Shown one piece after another: positions 43,825 through 56,435 of a stretch of 64,000 nt of DNA; within the stretch, counting starts at the first letter, position 1; each line of letters starts with the position of its first letter. The stretch covers positions 1 through 64,000 of the forward strand of contig CANRAZ010000006.1 in assembly GCA_947628705.1 (NCBI GenBank), in the 5' to 3' direction. The notes beneath the pieces were generated by a model, which had not been told where the DNA came from, searched no databases, and worked only from the letters and a program-made list of their open reading frames with translations. The position numbers were made by a program, and so were the translations under genes. This DNA comes from an uncultured Lachnospiraceae bacterium (GTDB lineage: Bacteria; Bacillota; Clostridia; Lachnospirales; Lachnospiraceae).

Positions 43825-44769
43825 ATGAACAAAGTTACCATCATCGGTGCCGGCAGCGTAGGCGCTACGATAGCTTACACGGTTGCGCTTCAGGGTCAGG
43901 CATCTGAAATCTTAATGATCGACATTAACAATGCAAAAGCGGAAGGTGAAGCAATGGATATCCGTCAGGGAAGCCCTTATTTTTCACCTGTTAAGATTAC
44001 TGCAGGAGATTATGCCGACGCAGTTGACTCCGATGTAGTTATCATTACTTCGGGTATTCCGAGAAAGGCAGGTCAGTCCAGACTGGAGCTTGCCCAGACA
44101 AATGTCAATGTAATGAAGGACATTGCACAGAAAATCACAAAGTATGCACCTAATGCAATTTTTATCATTGTAAGCAATCCTGTAGACGTAATGACTTACG
44201 CATTCCATAAGTTTTCGGGCGTTCCTGAAAATAAGATCATCGGTTCCGGAACAACGCTGGACACTGCAAGACTCCGTTCAAGAATCGGTGAGCTTTACAA
44301 CGTAGCTCAGAAAAACGTACATGCTTACGTTTTCGGAGAGCACGGCGATTCTTCTTTTGTTACATGGTCGCTTGCAAATATTTCAAATGTGCCTGTTGAC
44401 AAGTACAAGGACAGCGTAAGCAACTATATGCACGAGTGTCCTGAGCTTGACAAAAACGATATTGAAGATTATATCCGTAAATCAGGCGGACGCATTATCG
44501 AGCGTAAGGGCGCTACCTTCTACGCAATTGCTGTTTCCGTTTGTGAAATTCTTAAAGCTCTTGGAAAGAGCATTGACACCAATATGTGCGTTTCAACGAT
44601 GATGCACGGCGAATACGGCGTTGATGACTGCTGTCTCAGCACTCTTGTTTCCGTGGGCAAGGACGGTATTACCGGTAAAATTTTAGTTCCTCTTTCCGAT
44701 GAAGAAATCGCTCTCCTCCAGAAGAGCGCAGACAGTCTCAAGGCTGTAATAAGCAGCGTTGACCTTTAA
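43825..44769 (+). CDS. mdh: LDH-fold 2-hydroxyacid dehydrogenase, probably malate dehydrogenase
   Basis: A 314-residue NAD-dependent enzyme of the lactate/malate dehydrogenase family. KVTIIGAGSVGATIAYTV binds NAD, DTARLRSRIGELYNV and the catalytic His in YVFGEHGDSSFV are present. The specificity loop reads SGIPRKAGQSRLELAQ: Arg80 stands where lactate dehydrogenases have Gln (Q102 in standard numbering), and Arg at this place selects a 4-carbon dicarboxylate. The IGSGTTLDTARL segment is more LDH-like, so the family is mixed. Position directly before fumarase and fumarate reductase favours oxaloacetate-to-malate reduction. L-lactate dehydrogenase remains the alternative. AGAAGGA precedes the ATG. 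Confidence 0.75.
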   Translation: MNKVTIIGAGSVGATIAYTVALQGQASEILMIDINNAKAEGEAMDIRQGSPYFSPVKITAGDYADAVDSDVVIITSGIPRKAGQSRLELAQTNVNVMKDIAQKITKYAPNAIFIIVSNPVDVMTYAFHKFSGVPENKIIGSGTTLDTARLRSRIGELYNVAQKNVHAYVFGEHGDSSFVTWSLANISNVPVDKYKDSVSNYMHECPELDKNDIEDYIRKSGGRIIERKGATFYAIAVSVCEILKALGKSIDTNMCVSTMMHGEYGVDDCCLSTLVSVGKDGITGKILVPLSDEEIALLQKSADSLKAVISSVDL

Positions 44770-44781
44770 TTTCTGGTTTTT

Positions 44782-44814
44782 AAGGCAGTGCTTCTGAAAT
44801 GACGGCACTGCCTT
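44782..44814 (+). other. Intercistronic hairpin between mdh and fumC
   Basis: AAGGCAGTGC (44782-44791) pairs perfectly with GCACTGCCTT (44805-44814). There is no T tract, so it is more likely an RNA-processing or stabilising element, or a weak attenuator, than a full terminator. Confidence 0.55.
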
Positions 44815-44849
44815 TGCAACGTCTATAATTATGAAACAGGAGGATTTTT

Positions 44850-46226
44850 ATGGAATACCGTATTGAACATGATTCCATGGGCGAGGTTAAGGTCCCTGCC
44901 GATAAATACTGGGCAGCACAGACTGAAAGAAGCCATGAGAATTTCCTTATCGGCGTCGGAATTGAAACAATGCCGAGAGAAATCACATATGCATTCGGCG
45001 TTCTTAAAAAAGCCGCAGCAATTGCGAACAATGCTCTTAAGCCTGAAAAAATGACGGACAGGAAGCTTGCCGCAATTTCGCAGGCATGTGATGAAGTAAG
45101 GAGCGGAGCTCTTAACGACCATTTTCCGCTTGTCGTTTGGCAGACCGGCAGCGGCACTCAGTCAAACATGAATGCCAATGAGGTTATTGCCAACAGGGGA
45201 AATGAAATAGCGGGAGAGAAGCTTCTTCATCCTAATGACGACATTAACATGTCGCAGTCGTCAAACGACACATTCCCAACTGCAATGCATATTGCAGCCG
45301 TTACAATAATAGAAGATAAGCTCTTTCCTGCAATCGACCTTCTTGTAAGCACCTTTAAGAGGCTTGAGGCCGAAAACGAGGGAATCGTCAAGAGCGGAAG
45401 AACTCATCTTCAGGACGCTACTCCGATCACCTTTTCTCAGGAAATCAGCGGCTGGCGTTCAAGTCTTGAAAAGGACAGGAAGCTTCTTGAGCTTTCCCTT
45501 ACAGAGCTTAAGGAACTGGCTCTCGGCGGTACGGCCGTAGGAACTGGACTTAACACTCCTAAGGGCTTTGCCGAGAAGGTTGCGGAAGCGGTAAGCGAGA
45601 TAACAGGTAAGGATTTCATTACAGCTCCTAATAAATTTCATGCGCTGACCAGCAAGGATGAGATAGTGTTTGCACACGGAGCTTTAAAGGCTTTGGCTGC
45701 CGACATGATGAAAATCGCAAATGACGTAAGGTGGCTTGCGAGTGGTCCGAGGCTTGGTCTTGGGGAGATTAAAATTCCTGAAAATGAACCGGGCTCGTCA
45801 ATTATGCCGGGCAAGGTAAATCCTACCCAGTGCGAAGCGGTAACGATGGTTGCCGTTCAGGTTATGGGCAACGATGTGGCTGTCGGAATGGCGGCCAGCC
45901 AGGGAAATTTCGAACTTAATGTGTTCATGCCTGTATGTGCCTATAATTTCCTTCAGTCTGCAAGGCTTCTTGCTGAAGCTATTGTATCCTTTAATAACAA
46001 TTGTGCGGTCGGAATCACTGCAAACAAAGAAAAGATGCATGACAATCTTCACAATTCTTTAATGCTTGTTACGGCGCTCAACCCGTATATAGGATATGAA
46101 AACGCTGCCAAGACCGCTAAAAAGGCGTACAGGGAAAACATATCCTTAAAACAGGCGTGCGTTGAGCTTGGATTCCTGACTGAGGAACGTTTCGATGAAG
46201 TATTCCATCCTGAACAGATGGTATAA
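44850..46226 (+). CDS. fumC: Class II fumarate hydratase
   Basis: The iron-free, oxygen-stable tetrameric fumarase interconverts malate and fumarate. The 458 residues include TGSGTQSNMNANEVIANRG, NMSQSSNDTFPTAMHI, GRTHLQDATPITFSQE (with the catalytic His) and the family signature GSSIMPGKVNPTQCEA. AGGAGG at 44838-44843 precedes the ATG. It is flanked by the malate-type dehydrogenase and hdrB, placing it in the reductive branch from oxaloacetate to succinate. Use of the class II enzyme rather than the iron-sulfur class I is worth noting in a strict anaerobe. Confidence 0.96.
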   Translation: MEYRIEHDSMGEVKVPADKYWAAQTERSHENFLIGVGIETMPREITYAFGVLKKAAAIANNALKPEKMTDRKLAAISQACDEVRSGALNDHFPLVVWQTGSGTQSNMNANEVIANRGNEIAGEKLLHPNDDINMSQSSNDTFPTAMHIAAVTIIEDKLFPAIDLLVSTFKRLEAENEGIVKSGRTHLQDATPITFSQEISGWRSSLEKDRKLLELSLTELKELALGGTAVGTGLNTPKGFAEKVAEAVSEITGKDFITAPNKFHALTSKDEIVFAHGALKALAADMMKIANDVRWLASGPRLGLGEIKIPENEPGSSIMPGKVNPTQCEAVTMVAVQVMGNDVAVGMAASQGNFELNVFMPVCAYNFLQSARLLAEAIVSFNNNCAVGITANKEKMHDNLHNSLMLVTALNPYIGYENAAKTAKKAYRENISLKQACVELGFLTEERFDEVFHPEQMV

Positions 46227-55002: not shown

Positions 55003-55035
55003 TTTTCACAAAAAAAGGCTTTAATTTGCAATAAG

Positions 55036-55112
55036 TTTGTGACAAATTAGTCTTGATTAAAACATAATTATACTGTATATTTTTAGGGAACCTGTCGGCA
55101 GGCAGGTTCCCT
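55036..55112 (+). promoter_or_regulatory. Promoter and 5' hairpin of the AspT-family exporter gene
   Basis: TTGATT (55053-55058) and TATATT (55076-55081) are 17 bases apart. The odd palindrome TTTGT-G-ACAAA (55036-55046) sits just upstream. AGGGAACCTG (55085-55094) pairs with CAGGTTCCCT (55103-55112). The hairpin either caps the new transcript or helps end the frd transcript; it has no T tract. Confidence 0.5.
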
Positions 55113-55217
55113 AATTATGTGTACAAAATAAAATTTATGGTTGCAGGGAATGTCCGGACCCGGCGGATTTTAAGCTGATGCCGCTTTCAGACAGGAACTG
55201 ATATGGAGGAAAAAAAC

Positions 55218-56435
55218 ATGGAATTGTTCGGTGGCGTAGTAAGCATTACGGGAGTGAGCATCCTGATGTTTTCCGTATTTGTTGTGACCGTTTTCGGTTA
55301 TCTGCTCGGAAGAATTACGATTAAGGGTGTCAGCCTCGGAACGGCAGGCGTTTTTATCATAGCCCTTCTTTTCGGAGCTGTTTTCCTTTCAGGCGAAGCT
55401 CCTATGCTTACAATAAGCAGTGATTCGCTTAAAATAGTTGAAAATCTCGGACTTGTGCTTTTTGTTGCTTCGGTAGGTTTTATTGCAGGTCCAAATTTCT
55501 TTAAAAACCTTAAGAAAAACTTTAAATCATACATTGTGCTTGGACTTATAATAATCCTTGCAGGTGCTCTTGCCTGTGCAGGCTGCTTCTTCGCAGGAAA
55601 AGGAATGGAATCGGATCCCGATGAATTTATTGCTATGCTTGTAGGCATTCTTTCAGGTTCGCTTACAAGCACTCCTGCATTTTCAGCCGCAAAGGCTACG
55701 GTAGCGCCTGAGTACGAAGATGCAGTAACCGTTGGTCACGGAATTGCATACCTTTTCGGTGTTATCGGAGTCGTGCTTTTTGTTCAGCTTATTCCTAAGA
55801 TATTGAAAGCGGATATGCAGAAGGAGCGTGAGCTTATCAGCGTTGTTGACACAGGAGAGGTAAAAGAACAGAAAAAGCGTTTTGATATCGACGCTTTTGG
55901 CTTTTGCGCTTTCGGCGCAGCTGCCGTTATCGGCATATTCGTGGGCGCAATCAAGGTTCCTCTTTCGGGCGATGGGCTCAGCGGAACAACCTTTTCGCTT
56001 ACGACTACCGGCGGAGTGCTTTTGACAGCTCTTCTTTTCGGACATTTCGGTCATATCGGTCCGGTAAGCATCAAGATCGACAAGAGAATTCTTGAAGTAT
56101 TCAGAGAGTTCGGACTTATGCTTTTCCTTATAGGCGCAGGTATAGCAGGCGGCGCAAAGTTCGTAGAATATTTCAAACCGGTGTATTTCCTTTACGGAAT
56201 CATAATGACGCTTGCACCGATGCTTATAGGCTTCATATTTGCAAAATTTGTGCTCAAGCTCAGTCTGCTTAACAACTTGGGCTCAATTACAGGAGGTATG
56301 ACAAGTACCCCTGCGCTTGGAACGCTTATAAACGTCGCAGGCACGGACGATGTTGCATCGGCTTATGCGGCAACATATCCTATTGCTTTGATTTCGGTAG
56401 TCCTTGCGTCGCAGTTCCTTATCATTTTGCTTTAA
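55218..56435 (+). CDS. AspT/YidE-family transporter, candidate succinate exporter
   Basis: A 405-residue membrane protein with about ten hydrophobic helices in two related halves. Each half contains the family signature, GSLTSTPAFSAA (first half) and GGMTSTPALGTL (second half). The family includes the aspartate:alanine antiporter AspT and the succinate exporter SucE1 of Corynebacterium. Unlike most members it lacks the central TrkA-C/RCK domains, having only a short charged linker (MQKERELISVVDTGEVKEQKKR). GGAGG at 55205-55209 selects the ATG at 55218. Its place behind frdBA suggests export of succinate made by the pathway, and that is inference. Confidence 0.75.
   Translation: MELFGGVVSITGVSILMFSVFVVTVFGYLLGRITIKGVSLGTAGVFIIALLFGAVFLSGEAPMLTISSDSLKIVENLGLVLFVASVGFIAGPNFFKNLKKNFKSYIVLGLIIILAGALACAGCFFAGKGMESDPDEFIAMLVGILSGSLTSTPAFSAAKATVAPEYEDAVTVGHGIAYLFGVIGVVLFVQLIPKILKADMQKERELISVVDTGEVKEQKKRFDIDAFGFCAFGAAAVIGIFVGAIKVPLSGDGLSGTTFSLTTTGGVLLTALLFGHFGHIGPVSIKIDKRILEVFREFGLMLFLIGAGIAGGAKFVEYFKPVYFLYGIIMTLAPMLIGFIFAKFVLKLSLLNNLGSITGGMTSTPALGTLINVAGTDDVASAYAATYPIALISVVLASQFLIILL

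Follow-up and report, generated by a model that had tools for sequence, protein, structure and literature searches.

A conserved Flx-Hdr-Frd gene cluster in gut Clostridia: a candidate soluble, electron-bifurcating NADH:fumarate reductase

Gene content and organization of the locus

This analysis concerns a run of genes predicted to encode a soluble fumarate reductase linked to a Flx-Hdr module, found in the genome of an uncultured bacterium. The run lies on contig CANRAZ010000006.1 (GCA_947628705.1), from which a stretch of 64,000 nt was analysed, referred to here as the window; the genome of the window (G000) is 86% complete. Eleven genes and an exporter gene occupy positions 43825..56435, all of them open frames read in one direction on the + strand, and both the frames and the family scans agree with the gene content and order proposed in the initial annotation. 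The run begins with an mdh-like gene of the LDH/MDH family by family scans (43825..44769, 314 aa), carrying Arg80 at the substrate-specificity position, and fumC (44850..46226), a class II fumarate hydratase over the TIGR00979 cut-off. These are followed by hdrB (46261..47055), with two CCG domains, and hdrC (47052..47441), with two [4Fe-4S] motifs, both identified by family scans and residue conservation, and then by hdrA (47456..49444), which specifies an FAD domain and a C-terminal ferredoxin arm and was identified by family scans and its match to the solved structure 5odc_A. The Flx genes comprise flxD (49435..49881), of the MvhD/FlpD family by family scans; flxC (49866..50840), a [4Fe-4S] protein whose relatives, by family scan and solved-structure match, are formate dehydrogenase beta subunits; flxB (50837..51868), related in family scans to the sulfhydrogenase beta subunit, under the cut-off; and flxA (51852..52694), an FAD/NAD(P)-binding subunit whose closest solved relative is sulfhydrogenase 1 gamma (9nez_C). 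Family scans and alignment gave frdB (52718..53392) a [2Fe-2S] domain and two [4Fe-4S] motifs, without a CCG domain, while frdA (53407..55002) is an FAD_binding_2 flavoprotein by family scans, fold match and active-site residues. The last gene is an AspT/YidE-family (Asp-Al_Ex) exporter by family scans (55203..56435), a candidate dicarboxylate exporter. The tight packing noted originally, with overlaps or gaps under about 80 bases, holds for the eleven genes, where at one extreme flxB and flxA overlap by 17 bases and at the other mdh and fumC stand 80 bases apart.

Conservation of gene order and co-occurrence

Related loci were retrieved with a profile of 20 FrdB sequences. The 80 loci compared were the best of 423 confirmed matches and lean to close relatives, and 18 further loci brought the set to 98; a gene was scored as present from 45% coverage. 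Conservation of the hdrBCA-flxDCBA-frdBA order in relatives had been set beforehand as a test of the initial annotation, and the core order hdrB-hdrC-hdrA-flxD-flxC-flxB-flxA-frdB-frdA was found in all 80 loci, 59 of which held all nine genes while the other 21 were runs cut by contig ends. Because the core order recurs in 80 of 80 loci, the arrangement is far from chance. Core gaps in the 59 complete loci (n = 472) had a median of 14 bases, and 2 exceeded 100. Where there was enough flanking sequence among these 59, fumC was present in 52/56, mdh in 36/54 and the exporter in 36/46. By their record labels, which are unchecked, most of the 80 loci come from metagenome-assembled genomes (MAGs) of Clostridia from gut and rumen, and a few are assigned to Treponema, Synergistaceae, Planctomycetaceae or Bacteroidaceae.

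Twelve of the 18 further loci were complete and in the same order, and 2 were ordered runs cut by contig ends; L038 held the same nine genes in a permuted arrangement that begins with frdBA, and L039 was a weak match without the cluster. L043 (cut in flxA) and L044 (complete), both among the 18, also carried a reverse nfnA-like gene. Irregular frames were seen at L033 (G173), where a frame change and a TGA apparently interrupt HdrA while the rest of the operon is complete, either a sequencing error or decay, and at L105, where frdA matches over 58% of its length before the exporter, by truncation, frame change or assembly fault; the latter locus was scored as complete all the same.

Co-occurrence was examined in 291 genomes drawn from the class, with a threshold of E <= 1e-100 for HdrA. 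FrdB was found in 41 genomes, HdrA in 43 and both in 39 (Fisher's test, p ~2e-41, the genomes not being independent). The two lay on one contig in 34 of the 39, and in the other five (G007, G126, G177, G255, G274) the contig bearing FrdB ends at most 3.6 kb upstream. Two genomes had FrdB without HdrA, namely G071, where the contig ends in flxC, and G273, where the FrdB match is weak. Four had HdrA without FrdB: G032, where the contig ends in flxA, and G022, G037 and G065, whose HdrA types show 43-48% identity and are not accompanied by this FrdB. All 40 strong FrdB matches except that of G071 were in genomes with the window type of HdrA. Since the pair co-occurs in 39 genomes and the exceptions are explained by contig ends or are weak, window-type HdrA is nearly always linked to FrdAB in the class sample. 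Its distribution among the close kin of the window's genome is patchy, with 8 of 41 genomes, that of the window included, having HdrA.

The HdrA-like matches of G037 and G065 were reported with in-frame stops, and a recoded codon was considered and rejected, as the open reading frame listing gives a stop-free frame of 1013 codons. At both loci (L133, L134) this frame contains two HdrA-like stretches and is followed by FlxD- and FlxC-like genes.

The Flx-Hdr subunits and the mdh-like protein

All seven subunits of a FlxABCD-HdrABC module are present and adjacent. Residue conservation was counted over the 98 loci, using those proteins that reached 90% coverage and were free of internal stops and dropping the rest, which gave samples of 47 mdh-like, 73 HdrB, 72 HdrC, 76 HdrA and 89 FrdA proteins. 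HdrB keeps its ten CCG cluster cysteines, with both CCG motifs, in 73/73 relatives, and no other CCG-domain protein was found in the genome of the window (86% complete); the eight cluster cysteines of HdrC are kept in 72/72. Residues 3-659 of the 662 in HdrA align with the solved HdrA 5odc_A (690.8 bits), the C-terminal ferredoxin region included, and we take 5odc HdrA to be that of the bifurcating methanogen enzyme. The cluster-motif cysteines of HdrA at 191-306, as well as Cys 389, 403, 407 and 408, are kept in 76/76, and the same holds for the eight cysteines of its two C-terminal [4Fe-4S] motifs. We infer that the electron donor at FlxA would be NADH rather than NADPH.

The mdh-like protein narrowly passes one NCBIfam malate dehydrogenase cut-off (284.4 vs 283). 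Arginine at position 80 of the specificity loop, which presumably follows the rule for malate, was present in 47/47 relatives extracted; malate is favoured because of this residue and is likely the substrate.

FrdA and FrdB

FrdA scored below the cut-off for each of the 25 NCBIfam families listed, the best being TfrA (345.4 vs 718). Its predicted model (pLDDT 80) has E. coli FrdA as best fold match (E 1.7e-30), and the set His318, Thr334, Glu335, Arg338, Arg359, His431 and Arg465, mapped via alignment with E. coli FrdA, was found in 89/89 relatives; these residues we take to fill the fumarate active-site roles. Asn127 stands in 89/89 at the position of the FAD-linking histidine, presumably His44 of E. 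coli FrdA, so the FAD of FrdA is likely non-covalent. The protein has an N-terminal extension of 88 residues with 13 near-invariant positions, and no match to the C-terminal domain Succ_DH_flav_C was obtained in family scans. Its nearest named homolog is from a Lachnospiraceae MAG (94% identity), and the match list includes [Clostridium] leptum and Solibaculum mannosilyticum at 80% identity. Homologs are recorded as FAD-dependent oxidoreductase and, in one case of 80% identity, as L-aspartate oxidase; under such names the Flx-Hdr-Frd system is hidden in annotation.

FrdB has two CxxCxxCxxxC motifs, invariant in an alignment of 20 sequences, and the family scan detected no CCG domain (PF02754) in it. 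A portion of FrdB aligns with the N-terminal region of TfrB, scoring 39.1 against a TfrB equivalog cut-off of 385. The name FrdB was given because of its clusters and its place beside FrdA.

Quinone, thiol and ferredoxin background of the carriers

Possible electron partners were sought in 44 carrier genomes, consisting of 37 of the 41 FrdB-positive genomes (G071, G099, G110 and G273 being omitted) and 7 other HdrA-positive genomes, with the operon contig stopping before frdB in two carriers, G291 and G293. The membrane anchors Sdh_cyt (PF01127) and Fumarate_red_C (PF02300) were each found in 0/44 carriers, PF02313 not being searched. MenD was over its cut-off in 0/44, and the weaker matches present in 35 carriers are likely other thiamine enzymes. 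DsrC (PF04358) was likewise over its cut-off in 0/44, with one sub-threshold match, in G179 (21.8 vs 24.9).

As possible users of ferredoxin, RnfC was over its cut-off in 18/44 carriers, none of them in the window's own genus, and [FeFe] hydrogenase was found in 39/44, only as a fragment in G294. The latter enzyme was not found in G000, G291, G293, G161 and G203, of which G161 and G203 have RnfC; in the four own-genus genomes searched, neither a complete [FeFe] hydrogenase nor RnfC was found. Matches to the [NiFe] large subunit occurred in 6/44 carriers, including G000, G291 and G293. In G000 the matching protein is encoded, as the large subunit, within an Ech-like cluster of six genes (L131, 2931-8379), in which five genes resemble complex I or antiporter subunits in NCBIfam, one of them over the NuoB cut-off, and one is unmatched. 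Among solved structures this large subunit is closest to a membrane-bound hydrogenase (6cfw_L, 241.7 bits) and to formate hydrogenlyase; cysteine motifs, which we take to be the Ni site, are visible in its alignment.

Divergent from the operon, on the - strand of the window, are an nfnA-like gene (42021..42908, family scan), an nfnB-like gene (40627..42021) and, beside them, a gene for NADP-specific glutamate dehydrogenase (39229..40563, family scan). The nfnB-like product, named NADPH-dependent glutamate synthase by NCBIfam, is matched best, among solved structures, by 4ylf_B (545.6 bits), whose entry reads dihydropyrimidine dehydrogenase subunit A and which is presumably the Nfn of T. maritima, and by 5jca_L of NfnI (510.9). 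The trio recurs in the same-genus loci L043 and L044; L100 and L109 have nfnAB as well, and L052 has part of nfnB. Through nfnAB and glutamate dehydrogenase, ferredoxin reduced by the operon's products could be linked to NADPH and to the synthesis of glutamate. With the Ech-like cluster and the neighbouring nfnAB, the genome offers two possible uses of reduced ferredoxin.

Flanking signals and other features

A promoter-like site (43713..43741, +; 10/12 consensus matches) lies upstream of mdh. It is a consensus match only, and one of 32 such sites in the region against 19.4 expected. All + strand terminator-like sites between it and the end of frdA lie before or within genes, and these sites, also consensus matches, are not commoner than in shuffles. 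The exporter is separated from frdA by 200 bases containing a perfect hairpin (55083..55114, +; 12-base inverted repeat, fold z-score -7.1), a possible terminator or attenuator. It was rejected as a conserved feature of this position: a stem of at least 9 pairs was present in 5/50 relatives' loci, so the hairpin of the window is not a general feature. Elsewhere in the window (25962-30224), a protein of 1420 aa with BcrAD_BadFG and DUF2229 domains resembles a CoA-dehydratase activator.

Discussion

It is rather probable that the locus directs electrons from NADH to both fumarate and ferredoxin through HdrABC-FlxABCD-FrdAB, likely as one cytoplasmic enzyme; frdBA has no neighbouring gene for an anchor. 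NADH would be oxidised at FlxA and its electrons split at the flavin of HdrA, one reaching ferredoxin and the other travelling via HdrC, HdrB, FrdB and FrdA to fumarate, giving 2 NADH + fumarate + oxidised ferredoxin -> 2 NAD+ + succinate + reduced ferredoxin. Oxaloacetate would be converted to the required fumarate by Mdh and FumC, and succinate would leave the cell through the exporter. Reduced ferredoxin would be consumed either by the Ech-like hydrogenase, which would give H2 and an ion gradient, or by NfnAB from the adjoining genes, which would give NADPH. Since FrdB has no counterpart of the TfrB CCG domain, HdrB would serve as an adaptor passing electrons straight to FrdB. The SdhABE enzymes, in which an HdrB-like subunit serves FrdAB, set a precedent for this combination. 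Complex formation, the NADH donor, bifurcation, the fumarate substrate, the route through HdrB and the use of ferredoxin are all predictions made from sequence. Ferredoxin potentials lie at -500 to -420 mV, and for this range the overall reaction was computed to be downhill, at about -33 to -49 kJ/mol. The potentials of NADH and fumarate are given as -320 mV and +33 mV (PMC5861303).

The claim of the initial annotation that this is a soluble fumarate reductase linked to Flx-Hdr is partly supported overall, by gene order, co-occurrence, conserved residues and the 0/44 counts for anchors, MenD and DsrC, and it stands as a prediction. A wider proposal, for which the prospects appear about even, is that HdrB would no longer be a disulfide reductase but an adaptor, and that fumarate would act as the high-potential acceptor of bifurcation in quinone-free gut Clostridia, so that forming succinate would conserve energy through coupling to Ech, Rnf or Nfn; nearly all such Flx-Hdr systems in the class would then reduce fumarate rather than disulfides.

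Several observations weigh against this assignment. The kinds of protein named in the initial annotation were confirmed, but some of the names are softer. FrdB matches the SdhB/FrdB subfamily model TIGR00384 weakly (31.2 vs cut-off 88), and a profile search of the PDB with FrdB gave no SdhB among the best 60 of 72 chains (E <= 0.001), where the matches were to ferredoxin-type domains such as those of RnfC and PsaC; its predicted structure was too poor for a fold search (pLDDT 64, pTM 0.40). FrdA, HdrB and HdrC are also below curated NCBIfam cut-offs, although the equivalog cut-offs failed by several Flx-Hdr subunits are set on other enzymes, and confidence in the FrdA model is low over four stretches, active-site loops among them. 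NCBIfam tends to place the mdh-like protein with L-lactate dehydrogenase, two cut-offs of which it passes (342.9 vs 339 and 330.1 vs 303.55). The N-terminal cysteines of HdrA (9, 11, 44, 67, 69, 101) are kept in 69 to 76 of 76 relatives, and so not in all. An MqnA-type protein was over its cut-off in 4/44 carriers, barely (27.3-33.7 vs 26 bits) and never in the window's own genus. Finally, absences in the window's genome are provisional because it is 86% complete.

The principal rival, though unlikely, is a soluble NADH:fumarate reductase without bifurcation, in which Flx-Hdr would only relay electrons to FrdAB as an NAD+-regenerating sink. With fumarate as the only acceptor, NADH oxidation is strongly exergonic (-68 kJ/mol), and the purified Moorella complex MetFV-HdrABC-MvhD did not reduce ferredoxin (PMC8578096), which also counts against the bifurcating enzyme preferred here. 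A simple relay, however, would have no obvious need of the four flavin-side cluster cysteines of HdrA (389, 403, 407 and 408) or of the ferredoxin arm, all invariant in the relatives counted.

Less probable still is a thiol carrier, whereby Flx-Hdr would reduce a disulfide, possibly of a small molecule, and FrdAB would take electrons from the resulting thiols in the manner of archaeal thiol:fumarate reductase. The intact CCG motifs of HdrB would suit such chemistry, as would the ranking of TfrA, below its cut-off, as the best NCBIfam match of FrdA. Direct transfer from HdrB to FrdB is nevertheless favoured, because FrdB lacks a CCG domain and DsrC was not at its cut-off in any carrier; moreover, no CCG protein besides HdrB was found in the genome.

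That FrdAB is an independent enzyme with another donor, merely sharing an operon with Flx-Hdr, is very improbable: a shared operon is not proof of a complex, and at L038 frdBA stands at the other end of the cluster, but 39 of the 40 strong FrdB matches are in genomes with this HdrA type (in the exception, G071, the contig ends in flxC), and the carriers yielded neither of the two anchor families nor MenD at its cut-off. Least credible of all is that the flavoprotein is an aspartate oxidase or another enoate reductase, since the record name of one homolog and a NadB (L-aspartate oxidase) score of 278.9 bits, below the cut-off of 452.75, are set against invariant fumarate active-site residues, a best fold match to E. 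coli FrdA and fumC upstream in 52 of the 56 loci with enough flank.

If the bifurcating fumarate reductase is real, many seemingly quinone-free gut and rumen Clostridia would gain energy while making succinate, by way of reduced ferredoxin, and succinate producers would need revised energy and hydrogen balances. Genes now annotated as heterodisulfide reductase or FAD-dependent oxidoreductase would be parts of a fumarate reductase. Fumarate would join the acceptors of flavin-based bifurcation, and the system would offer a compact target for structure determination and assay.

Comparison with known systems

The Flx-Hdr-Frd system differs from quinone-linked fumarate reductase and complex II in that the anchors PF01127 and PF02300 were found in none of the 44 carriers and asparagine (Asn127) replaces the FAD-linking histidine throughout. 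It resembles the 8-methylmenaquinol:fumarate reductase SdhABE, whose SdhE is an HdrB-like CCG subunit and whose SdhE model is matched by HdrB at 144 bits; this score is, however, below the cut-off of 500, and no carrier has MenD over its cut-off. With archaeal TfrAB it shares the best NCBIfam match of FrdA (TfrA) and the resemblance of part of FrdB to the N-terminal part of TfrB, whereas FrdB is without the CCG domain, FrdA is without the C-terminal part of TfrA, and the scores are below the cut-offs.

FlxABCD-HdrABC of Desulfovibrio vulgaris has the same seven subunit types, compared by name and not by sequence. DsrC is the acceptor proposed there (PMC6491731), whereas in the window frdBA is attached and none of the 44 carriers has DsrC at the cut-off. 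In symbionts and purple sulfur bacteria, tfrAB is interspersed with flx-hdr and korABCD (PMC6315080). The reductive tricarboxylic acid (rTCA) clusters of Thioflavicoccus and a tubeworm symbiont are similar to the window in having tfrAB interspersed with flxABCD-hdrABC, for which a complex was proposed, but they also hold korABCD and their hosts are autotrophs (PMC6315080), while the carriers of the window's operon are likely fermenters. No link to the Flx-Hdr-Frd system was found in the accessible part of PMC6776011, nor was a report of a biochemical test of such an operon found in the literature searched, outside which most subscription journals lie.

The closest published counterpart is the 'succinate operon' of Pseudoclostridium thermosuccinogenes, in which fumarate hydratase, Flx-Hdr, fumarate reductase and a possible transporter form one run of locus tags, as they do in the window by description rather than sequence (PMC7282089). 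Its Flx-Hdr genes have tags 03360-30, seven genes if numbered in fives, and its fumarate reductase two tags. The fumarate reductase was there assumed to be linked to ferredoxin reduction through Flx-Hdr, a link taken from an earlier proposal, with citation of a 2019 preprint by Koendjbiharie and van Kranenburg. Under CO2 limitation the operon was up about 4-fold and Rnf down about 2-fold, neither significantly for all subunits (PMC7282089). The window differs in its likely Lachnospiraceae host, in the mdh-like gene that heads the operon and in the adjoining nfnAB, neither of which is mentioned for that operon in the accessible part of PMC7282089. The idea of a Flx-Hdr-Frd system is, then, not new, the same kind of operon and the same idea having been published for P. 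thermosuccinogenes (PMC7282089). What is added here is its breadth in gut Clostridia, the near-exclusive pairing of this type of HdrA with FrdAB, the finding that MenD and DsrC are not at cut-off in the carriers, and the unusual features of FrdA.

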